This document shows, piece by piece, positions 59,307-62,221 of a stretch of DNA of 64,000 nucleotides. Both the position numbers and the translations under genes were made by a program. The DNA is from Oscillospiraceae bacterium (lineage in GTDB: Bacteria; Bacillota; Clostridia; Oscillospirales; Oscillospiraceae). The notes under the pieces were generated by a model that ran no database searches, had not been told where the DNA came from, and saw only the letters and a list, made by a program, of their open reading frames with translations. Position 1 is the first letter of the stretch, and every line of letters starts with the position of its first letter. The stretch spans positions 181,197 to 245,196 of the forward strand of contig JAJQCF010000022.1 in the NCBI GenBank assembly GCA_021202845.1, read 5' to 3'.

Positions 59307-60017
59307 TCACTTCAGGCGCTTGTCGCTCTTGACCGTGGCCGCCGTGCCTATGGACTGAAATATTTGAACGATAATTATCAGCAGTATGACCGCAATCACC
59401 ATGACGAGGTACTTGTAGCGGTAGTAGCCGTAGTTTATGGCAATCTTGCCCAGACCGCCGCCGCCGATTATGCCGCTCATGGCGGAGTAGCCCAGCACCG
59501 TGGTTATGGCAATGGTGAAATTCGATATAAGCGAGGGTACGCTCTCCGGCAGCATGACCTTCCACACAATCTGGAACGGCGACGCGCCCATGCTCTGCGC
59601 GGCCTCGATTATATTGGGGTTGACTTCGCGCAGGCTGCTTTCCACAAGGCGCGCCACAAAGGGGAACGCCGCCACCACGAGCGGCACGACTGTTGCCGGA
59701 GTGCCGACGGTGGTGCCGATTATGAGGCGCGAGAGGGGAAAGACCATTATCATCAGTATGAGGAAAGGTATGGAGCGCAGCAGGTTTATTATCACGTTCA
59801 GCGCCGCCATAAACGGTTTGGGCAGCGGCCGCACGCCGCTTTTGTCGCCCGCGACCAGCAGCACGCCCAGCGGCAGACCGATGACCACAGCCAGCAGCGT
59901 GCTGAGCACCGTGACGTAAAATGTCTCCCAAATGGCAAAGGGGATTTCCTCCTGCAAAACTCTGAGAGCCTCCTCCACGGAGGCGGATGTAAACATTTTT
60001 TCCAACATTGCGCTCAA
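59307..60017 (-). CDS. metI: Methionine ABC transporter permease
   Basis: This 236-residue permease with five transmembrane helices has the EAA-type loop ESSLREVNPNIIEAAQSMGASP of the MetI family and GGGGLGKIAINYGYYRY near the end. The start overlaps the metN stop by four bases. It is the last gene of metQNI. Confidence 0.95.
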   Translation of the reverse strand: MSAMLEKMFTSASVEEALRVLQEEIPFAIWETFYVTVLSTLLAVVIGLPLGVLLVAGDKSGVRPLPKPFMAALNVIINLLRSIPFLILMIMVFPLSRLIIGTTVGTPATVVPLVVAAFPFVARLVESSLREVNPNIIEAAQSMGASPFQIVWKVMLPESVPSLISNFTIAITTVLGYSAMSGIIGGGGLGKIAINYGYYRYKYLVMVIAVILLIIIVQIFQSIGTAATVKSDKRLK

Positions 60018-61012
60018 ACCTCCTCAACGACCACGCCGTCTACACTCTGCAAAAACTGCTTCGCCGCCTCGAAGTCGGCGTCGCCGCCGGGCAGAGCCAG
60101 CAGCATGGTTCCGTAAACCTTGTCGTCCAGCCGCCGTGTGGACGCGGCTAGTATGTTTGCCAGCACGTTTTTCTCCACGGCCATGCGCGCAATGAGCGGA
60201 GAGCCCGCGGCGTCCGCACCGTTGAACGTGACCCGCAGACGCTTTTCGTCGTGGGGGTCGGAGACGAGCACGTCGGCTCCCGTGGGGAACACCAAGCGGC
60301 GCGCGGCGTCGGACTTGGGGCTGGAGAATACCGTGCCCACAGCGCCCTGCTCGGCCACCTCGCCGCCGTCTAAGATGGCGACATGGTCGCATATCTCCTC
60401 CACGACGCTCATTTGGTGAGTGATGATGACGACGGTAATGCCCAGCTTTTCGTTTATGTCCTTTATGAGCTGCAAAATGGAGTGCGTCGTGTTGGGGTCG
60501 AGCGCGGAGGTGGCCTCGTCGCACAGCAGCACCTTGGGGTCTGTGGCGAGCGCGCGGGCTATGGCTACGCGCTGCTGCTGGCCGCCGCTGAGCTGTGCGG
60601 GGTAGCTTCGCGCCTTGTCGGGCAGGCCGACAAGCTCCAGCAGCTCCATTGCGCGCTTTTTGGCCTCGGCGCGCTTCATGCCCGCCAGCTCCAGCGGGAA
60701 GCAGACGTTGCGCAGGCAGCTGCGCTGCATGAGCAGGTTGAAGCTCTGGAATATCATGGCGATGTTGCGCCGCTCCGCCCTCAGCTCGGTATCCGAAAGC
60801 GCGGCCATGTCCCTGCCGTTTATTATAACGTGCCCCTCCGTGGGGCGCTCAAGCATATTTATGCAGCGCACAAGCGTACTCTTGCCCGCGCCGGACATGC
60901 CGATTATGCCGAAAATATCCCCGTCGTTTATAGTGAGGGAGATATTTTTCAGCGCCTGCACCTCTCCGCCGGATACGGAAAAGGTTTTGGAAAGGTTTTG
61001 TATTTCTATCAT
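60014..61012 (-). CDS. metN: Methionine ABC transporter ATP-binding protein
   Basis: This 332-residue ATPase has Walker A GMSGAGKST, signature LSGGQQQR and Walker B VLLCDEAT. A C-terminal NIL regulatory domain (about 255-332) in MetN binds methionine and inhibits uptake. The ATG at 61012 is chosen because GGAGG lies upstream and the sequence then begins MIEIQNLSKTF. Confidence 0.95.
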   Translation of the reverse strand: MIEIQNLSKTFSVSGGEVQALKNISLTINDGDIFGIIGMSGAGKSTLVRCINMLERPTEGHVIINGRDMAALSDTELRAERRNIAMIFQSFNLLMQRSCLRNVCFPLELAGMKRAEAKKRAMELLELVGLPDKARSYPAQLSGGQQQRVAIARALATDPKVLLCDEATSALDPNTTHSILQLIKDINEKLGITVVIITHQMSVVEEICDHVAILDGGEVAEQGAVGTVFSSPKSDAARRLVFPTGADVLVSDPHDEKRLRVTFNGADAAGSPLIARMAVEKNVLANILAASTRRLDDKVYGTMLLALPGGDADFEAAKQFLQSVDGVVVEEV

Positions 61013-61107: not shown

Positions 61108-61968
61108 TCAGCCGGTGATTACGTCAAGGCTGGTCTGCTTTCCGCCGTAAATGCCCATAGGCTCAACGTGTACGCCGGCAATGGACACAATGTGCGTGCC
61201 GTTTTCGGCGTTGAAGTCGTCAAGGTAGGGAACGTGCTGGAAGTAGTTAGCAAAGACCTCGCCGCTCTCAACAACGGTGTTGGGCTGGACATAGTCCGTG
61301 AACTCCATGATGTCCAGAGTGATGTCCTTCTCCGCCAGAATTTCGGCTGCGACGGCTAAAATCTCGGCGTGGGGAGCGGGGGAGCAGGCAATGGTGATGG
61401 TGGTTCCGGCAAGAGCGTCGTAGTCAACGGTGTCGTCGTAGCCGGTGCCCGGGTTATCGACCGCGGAGACAACGGAGCCGCTGTAAGTCTCGGTTATGAA
61501 GTCGGCGACAGCCTGACTGTAAACGGCGGCGGCAAGAGCCTTAGCCTCGTCGGTGTCCTCGTTGCCCTCGCGCACGCAGACGATGTTGACGTAAGCGGAG
61601 GCGGAGCCTTCCATTGCCAGCGCCTCGGTCATGGGGTCGATGTCGGCGGCTATGGCGTAGTTGGAGTTGATGATGCCGAAATCAACGTCCTGAAGCACAT
61701 TGGGTATCTGCGCGGCCTCGACCTCGCTGAACTGGAGGTTGTAGGGGTTGTCCGTGATGTCGCTGATGGTGGCGGTGATGCCGGCGTCGGCGTCGATGGT
61801 TATGTAGCCGAGGGTCTCAAGCAGCAGCAGCGCGCGCGCTTCGTTGGTGGTGTCGTTGGGAACGGCGATGGTGTAGGTGGTTTCCTCGGTCTTGCCGCAG
61901 GCGGTGAAGGAGCCAAGGCAGGCAACGACCAGAGCGAGAGTGAGGATTAGCGCAAGAGTCTTTTTCAT
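61108..61968 (-). CDS. metQ: Methionine-binding lipoprotein (NlpA family)
   Basis: This 286-residue surface lipoprotein has its signal peptide ending at lipobox FTAC (Cys23). YTIAVPNDTTNEARALLLLE and GIINSNYAI are NlpA/MetQ motifs. It captures methionine for MetNI. The ATG at 61968 has AAGGAG upstream and follows the attenuator terminator by about 30 bases. Confidence 0.95.
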   Translation of the reverse strand: MKKTLALILTLALVVACLGSFTACGKTEETTYTIAVPNDTTNEARALLLLETLGYITIDADAGITATISDITDNPYNLQFSEVEAAQIPNVLQDVDFGIINSNYAIAADIDPMTEALAMEGSASAYVNIVCVREGNEDTDEAKALAAAVYSQAVADFITETYSGSVVSAVDNPGTGYDDTVDYDALAGTTITIACSPAPHAEILAVAAEILAEKDITLDIMEFTDYVQPNTVVESGEVFANYFQHVPYLDDFNAENGTHIVSIAGVHVEPMGIYGGKQTSLDVITG

Positions 61969-62000
61969 GGTGGTTTCTCCTTTTTTGATATTTTTTGCAA

Positions 62001-62032
62001 TAAAAAAACGGAAAGCCTGATGGACTTTCCGT
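62001..62032 (-). terminator. Attenuator terminator of metQNI
   Basis: On the minus strand, ACGGAAAG pairs with CTTTCCGT (extended by CC/GG with one bulge), followed by a run of seven T residues. Confidence 0.9.
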
Positions 62033-62066
62033 GATTGCACAAGTTGAGGGGGTTGAATCAGCTCTT

Positions 62067-62075
62067 ACAGAAAGC
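62067..62075 (-). promoter_or_regulatory. Antiterminator segment of the metQNI leader
   Basis: On the minus strand this reads GCTTTCTGT, almost the same as the terminator 3' arm GCTTTCCGT. It can pair over eight bases with the terminator 5' arm ACGGAAAG (one G-U), excluding the terminator. It starts ten bases past the leader peptide stop codon, where a ribosome at the stop would cover it. Confidence 0.75.
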
Positions 62076-62084
62076 ACATCGTAT

Positions 62085-62162
62085 TTAGGCGCGGCGGCAC
62101 ATGCACATGGTCATCATGCGCATAGCGGTCATATTCATCATTGTGCTGACGAAATGCCTCAC
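62085..62162 (-). CDS. Methionine-rich leader peptide of metQNI
   Basis: This 25-codon frame starts at GTG, with AAAGGAG 8 bases upstream, a strong ribosome site. It has eight internal Met codons, including two MM pairs, concentrated in residues 8-21 (MMNMTAMRMMTMCMC), and ends RRA then TAA. It lies between a consensus promoter and a terminator/antiterminator pair ahead of the methionine transporter. It has no domain of its own. The arrangement is that of trp- or his-type leader peptides, in which ribosome stalling at scarce aminoacyl-tRNA favours readthrough. Confidence 0.85.
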   Translation of the reverse strand: MRHFVSTMMNMTAMRMMTMCMCRRA

Positions 62163-62192
62163 GACGTGTTCTCCTTTCACTGATTTTCCGCT

Positions 62193-62221
62193 ATTATAAC
62201 TGCAACGGCCATAATTGTCAA
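62193..62221 (-). promoter_or_regulatory. Perfect sigma-A promoter of the metQNI leader
   Basis: TTGACA, exactly 17 bases, TATAAT on the minus strand: a full match to consensus. It is about 30 bases before the leader peptide start. Confidence 0.92.

Follow-up and report, generated by a model that had tools for sequence, protein, structure and literature searches.

The metQNI locus and its leader

The analyzed DNA (the window) is a stretch of 64,000 nucleotides from a gut-type Oscillospiraceae bacterium, in which the genes metQ, metN and metI lie on the minus strand downstream of a leader (Table 1). Judged from their family matches, the three genes are a predicted methionine ABC importer. The MetQ of the window is circularly permuted: the half that is C-terminal in NlpA/MetQ models and in solved structures corresponds to residues 33-169 here, with the N-terminal half coming after. 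This permuted form stands behind most of the leaders described below, with the canonical order in L008 and L131, and a literature search found no paper describing a circularly permuted MetQ.

The first-pass annotation of this DNA had claimed that the minus strand carries, in order, a promoter, an AAAGGAG sequence, a 25-codon peptide with eight internal Met codons, a stop codon, and a terminator followed by seven T residues before metQ. Each of these elements was located, and their order and coordinates were borne out base for base. The leader peptide, MRHFVSTMMNMTAMRMMTMCMCRRA, contains two Cys codons in addition to its eight internal Met codons. The terminator hairpin has a predicted stability of about -13 kcal/mol; a terminator scan found one against a chance expectation of 1.3, so that taken by itself the terminator has no significance, which it gains from its conservation in relatives.

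Table 1. Features of the metQNI locus in window coordinates.
Feature	Position	Strand	Remarks
Sigma-70-type promoter TTGACA-17-TATAAT	62193..62221	-	12/12 consensus matches; TTGACA 62221-62216, 17 nt, TATAAT 62198-62193
Leader ORF Shine-Dalgarno (SD) AAAGGAG	62171..62177	-	position matched in related leaders
Segment 1, SD/start region GGAGAACACGTCG	62162..62174	-	partner of segment 2 (own-versus-swapped pairing)
Leader peptide ORF MRHFVSTMMNMTAMRMMTMCMCRRA	62085..62162	-	GTG at 62162, 25 codons, TAA 62087-62085
Invariant Met codon M19	62106..62108	-	33 nt ahead of GCTTTCTG in segment 2
Segment 2, antiterminator strand (AT) CGATGTGCTTTCTGT	62067..62081	-
GCTTTCTGT, antiterminator element named in the first-pass annotation	62075-62067	-
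Segment 3, terminator 5' arm ACGGAAAGTC	62023..62032	-	partner: segment 2 or segment 4
ACGGAAAG	starts at 62032	-
Segment 4, terminator 3' arm GGCTTTCCGT and seven-T tract	62002..62017	-
CTTTCCGT, then seven T	last T at 62002	-
metQ, methionine-binding lipoprotein, circularly permuted	61108..61968	-	NlpA/MetQ family, halves in swapped order; ATG 61968
metN, methionine ABC ATPase with NIL domain	60014..61012	-	ABC_MetN, PF09383; probable start MIEIQNL
metI, methionine ABC permease	59307..60017	-	best model MetI, slightly under its cut-off

Recurrence and conservation of the leader

A MetQ scan was the source of 54 loci for comparison. We found 22 further leaders of identical build in Clostridia (23 with that of the window), each consisting of a small ORF with a ribosome binding site (RBS), 4-10 internal Met codons, a pyrimidine-rich AT and then an intrinsic terminator, whose hairpin and T-tract were present in 23/23 leaders. 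Distant homologues (L031, L032, L034, L050, L051 and L054) have, ahead of metQ, an RBS, a Met/Cys-rich small ORF and a terminator. Across ~0.5 Mb of fetched sequence, read on both strands and with some loci repeated, the combination of Met-rich ORF, RBS and terminator occurred only upstream of metQ. A peptide-profile search of the organism's own 2.24 Mb genome gave a match only at this site, and because of this single match and the repetition of the whole layout before methionine genes elsewhere, the leader is not a chance feature.

Matches to the peptide profile were obtained in 16/300 genomes of the family, 6/295 of the order, 3/391 of the class and 2/398 of the phylum, counts that include the organism's own genome every time plus a few false hits. 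Diverged leaders were probably missed, because the window's own peptide reaches only E=0.0016 with a second profile. The profile matches L097, L099, L102, L107 and L108 were rejected, as on reading they lay inside genes, and a weak phylum-wide match (L136) was left out of the reading. At L008 (843-947) we observed a divergent Met-rich leader, MTFRNTMMMRMLFSRACNMARCFGMRCCTPENNA, with a terminator and then a canonical, non-permuted metQ; this leader was left out of the 23-leader set.

The first-pass annotation had proposed looking in related leaders for the small frame with its Met codons, for conserved spacing and for covariation in both helices. The small frame and its Met codons are retained: with the 23 leaders pooled, 173 ATGs are in frame versus 10 out of frame (9 and 1), and Met accounts for 22% of codons. 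Apart from the start, a 17-peptide alignment has three Met columns without any variation, and a Met stands at the M19 position in 23/23 leaders. Frame conservation, together with the RBS, argues that the leader ORF is translated. The spacing is also kept, the distance from M19 to AT being 33-35 nt in 23/23 leaders (sd 0.6, a value not to be over-read because the MAFFT gap costs favor a constant Met-to-AT distance). The position of AT relative to the stop codon ranges from 34 nt before it to 14 nt after it (-34 to +14), a shift of almost 50 nt, and its variants in this sequence-only MAFFT alignment are GCTTTC, GTTCTCC, GCTTCTTC and similar. AT is read in several frames or lies outside the ORF, and is therefore conserved at the RNA level.

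Most of the leaders are upstream of metQ-metN. One (L098) is directly upstream of metN, and five (L100, L101, L103, L105 and L109) are upstream of PLP enzymes of Cys/Met metabolism of the O-acetylhomoserine sulfhydrylase (MetY) type, an assignment that comes from a family test on two N-terminal stretches and makes the exact enzyme name presumptive. A single genome (G761) contains two leaders, L104 before metQ and L109 before metY. With metQ-metN, metN alone or metY-type genes downstream, the switch therefore tracks methionine genes, in agreement with the methionine role claimed for it at the outset.

We also observed a second conserved small ORF, e.g. MKNYFESLVRANFRFGRMCFCCK, which in many families of Clostridia lies a short way (roughly 50-130 nt) upstream of metY or metQ. 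Its core is RxNFRxGRM (LxRxNFRxGRM), followed by Cys or a stop (CGA ATG TG). It was found at L116, L117, L119-L127, L129 and L131-L133 and in the organism's own genome (G000:C13:3729-3788), and between the terminator and metQ or metY at L034, L088, L089, L096 and L101-L109; the metQ leader of the window lacks it. It corresponds to no family in Pfam or NCBIfam, and it could be an arrest-type leader peptide. The promoters of L101, L103-L106 and L109, and also of L116 and L117, overlap the palindrome-like ACCTATTGACAAGGTAGGTAA, which suggests a Rrf2/CymR-like repressor site besides the attenuator. Where metQ has no Met leader (L040, L043 and L045-L048, with L055-L061 similar), TATAGGT-N-ATCTATA or ATAGG..CCTATA is found near the promoter, motifs that resemble LysR-type operators.

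Competing helices and a model for attenuation

The competition between antiterminator and terminator that had been claimed for this leader was upheld by the comparison of relatives, but the claim lacked a third helix, which is the best conserved, i.e. the pairing of the SD/start region (62174-62162) with 62081-62069 in AT. We tested covariation by swapping partners between leaders, with offset segments as controls. Pairing of AT with its own terminator 5' arm (2:3) had a mean of -9.4 kcal/mol, versus -7.9 kcal/mol when swapped (p=0.0005 for 23 leaders, p=0.009 for 15 dereplicated), and pairing with its own SD/start region (1:2) had a mean of -12.7 versus -10.4 kcal/mol (p=5e-5 for 23, 7.5e-4 for 15 dereplicated), where all p-values may be inflated by residual relatedness among the leaders. 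Among the controls, segments lying 12-48 nt upstream of AT gave no pairing signal (p 0.08-0.88), and those downstream of AT gave at most a weaker signal, for the SD (p 0.005 and up). By partner swapping, both competing helices covary. Matching changes are seen in L101-L104 (GGAGAACA/TGTTCTCC), L092 (CAGAAAGC/GCTTTCTG) and L091 (GGAGAAGC/GCTTCTTC); 1:2 and 2:3 are both weak in L098, and the 2:3 helix of L101-L106 has only 5 pairs. Partner swapping superseded per-leader shuffling for antiterminator complementarity, which gave p from 0.005 to 0.86 and has little power because any 100-nt stretch finds some complement to the purine-rich arm.

When the naked transcript was folded, a long hairpin (-41.9 kcal/mol) joined the SD/start region to AT and left the terminator free. 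When the A site of a ribosome was set at M19 and the transcript extended to the terminator 5' arm, AT was predicted to lie on that arm (-10.1 kcal/mol); with the ribosome at the stop codon, half of AT was covered and 2:3 was weakened. Antitermination would depend on kinetics, because the terminator of the window is more stable than 2:3.

The two competing, covarying helices point to a three-state attenuator with trp/his logic, in which segment 2 (62081-62067) would have the SD/start region (1:2) or the terminator 5' arm (2:3) as alternative partners and the terminator would be 3:4. The predicted states are as follows: (i) when the leader is untranslated, 1:2 would form, leaving segment 3 free, and transcription would stop; (ii) when methionine is plentiful, the ribosome would reach the end of the leader and cover segment 2, so that the terminator would form; and (iii) when Met-tRNA is scarce, the ribosome would stall in the Met-rich core ~34 nt ahead of segment 2. 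In the stalled state, SD occlusion or ribosome queueing would block 1:2, 2:3 would form first and metQNI would be transcribed. Such queueing or steric hindrance would be needed because the SD stays uncovered by a ribosome at M19 alone. Severe Met starvation would favor termination, because fMet-tRNA would also drop, and initiation on the leader with it. From this arrangement we infer that ribosomes stall and queue, that methionine is the effector and which way the response runs. On comparative sequence grounds, the attenuator interpretation of the first-pass annotation is well supported, and we assign a probability of about 0.83 to the leader controlling metQNI as a ribosome-mediated transcription attenuator that senses when charged elongator Met-tRNA is scarce.

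The specificity is not purely Met, because every peptide contains Cys codons (1-5 in 23/23 peptides, 10% of all codons). The same attenuator might thus sense cysteine, or both sulfur amino acids, by stalling at the Cys codons of the MCMC core, a reading favored by the alternation of Cys and Met in that core, by the metY-type enzymes that link the sulfur pathways and by the proposed Streptomyces metL peptide, in which Cys is as frequent as Met. We consider it unlikely, while giving it more weight than any other alternative: no Cys column is invariant, whereas three Met columns are, not counting the start; a single Cys stands beside 8 internal Met in L098 and 7 in L054; the genes downstream serve methionine uptake and homocysteine/methionine synthesis; and the organism's own genome has a T-box-like element ahead of a cysE-cysS pair.

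It is very improbable that the leader is an untranslated RNA element (a riboswitch or protein-binding site) in which the AUG repeats have a structural role. A long conserved hairpin does enclose the ORF, but the ATGs keep to one frame, the aligned Met cores differ by indels of three nucleotides or multiples thereof, every leader has a start codon with a properly spaced SD, and an Rfam search up to E=5 gave no match bar an irrelevant chance match elsewhere. Slightly less probable still is a functional Met/Cys-rich peptide, e.g. a metal-binding one, with the terminator merely its 3' end and metQ reached by partial readthrough. MCMC-type sequences are similar to soft-metal ligands and the ORF is well conserved, but its C-terminal third is variable in sequence and length, the peptide has no match in Pfam or NCBIfam, and the DNA of segment 2 is kept across frames, is not part of the ORF in the window, and shows covariation with both the SD and the terminator. 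Least likely of all is that the leader responds to antibiotics or to a general slowing of translation instead of methionine, for although resistance-gene leader peptides work by similar logic, the codons here are specific to sulfur amino acids and methionine genes follow in every clear case.

Relation to known systems and implications

For Trp, His, Leu, Thr and Phe, attenuation by leader peptides is textbook knowledge, and the usual accounts of methionine genes in Firmicutes involve SAM riboswitches, T-boxes or repressors. The proposed methionine attenuator shares with the trp, his, leu and thr attenuators of Enterobacteria a small ORF rich in cognate codons, the 1:2/2:3/3:4 logic and an intrinsic terminator before the structural gene. 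It differs from them in that the cognate amino acid would be Met, which is also the initiator amino acid, with Cys codons mixed in, in that segment 1 is the leader's SD/start, and in that the genes served, in Clostridia, are those of a transporter and of metY type. Firmicutes leader peptides are known for His (hisS/hisZ; PMC2965389), and a Leu-rich attenuator is known in Staphylococcus (PMC5794164); likened by description, these too are Gram-positive leader-peptide attenuation replacing T-boxes, whereas their amino acids and genes are different (PMC2965389, PMC5794164).

The S-box (SAM-I, RF00162) also acts by premature termination and is the usual control of methionine genes in Firmicutes, and the T-box (RF00230) senses uncharged tRNA upstream of amino-acid genes. 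In an Rfam search, the metQ leader gave no match to the S-box up to E=5 and none to the T-box. The RF00162 model works in this genome, because it finds a match elsewhere, i.e. the genome's single S-box, before metK. Five T-box-like elements, below the curated cut-off, lie elsewhere in the genome before what ORF reading indicates are trp-, phe- and cys-type genes, and none of the five precedes a methionine gene. About 0.9 kb past the end of the window, a T-box-like element (G000:C12:246091-246290, plus strand; 63.5 bits, under the Rfam cut-off) stands before cysE-cysS.

The earlier statement that no methionine leader-peptide attenuator of this kind had been described is nearly right, but a metL peptide, MSTTSDRTPATEATTTPGARCMCRRMCAF, was previously predicted from RNA-seq before metNIQ of Streptomyces lividans (PMC8079986). 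This is also a short Met/Cys-containing peptide ahead of a methionine transporter operon; it differs in its leaderless transcript without a clear terminator, in having three Met only, in that no covariation was shown and in belonging to another phylum (PMC8079986), whereas an SD, a 5' UTR and a terminator are present in the window leader. A 2005 survey of Actinobacteria reported methionine operons without conserved upstream RNA structures (PMC1262725), and in Lactobacillus sakei a methionine transporter is preceded by a T-box (PMC2965389). In the open literature, a scope outside which most subscription journals fall, we found no other methionine leader attenuator, demonstrated or covarying. 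What is new is the specificity and the build, in a mechanism already known, and the leader family is absent from Rfam.

More broadly, and tentatively, the leaders may belong to a layer of sulfur-amino-acid control in Clostridia, consisting of a Met (perhaps Met and Cys) attenuator whose initiation needs the sensed amino acid, often with the second small ORF further down the same leader, possibly a sequence-specific arrest peptide for a sulfur metabolite. A methionine attenuator would separate the sensing of methionine (as charged tRNA) from that of SAM within one genome, the leader acting on metQNI and the S-box on metK. It would also pose a paradox, since every translation start uses methionine: how can the leader be translated, and stall, during methionine shortage? 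For uncultured gut and rumen Clostridia, the leader would provide an in vivo methionine sensor, and an RNA family that could be added to annotation.
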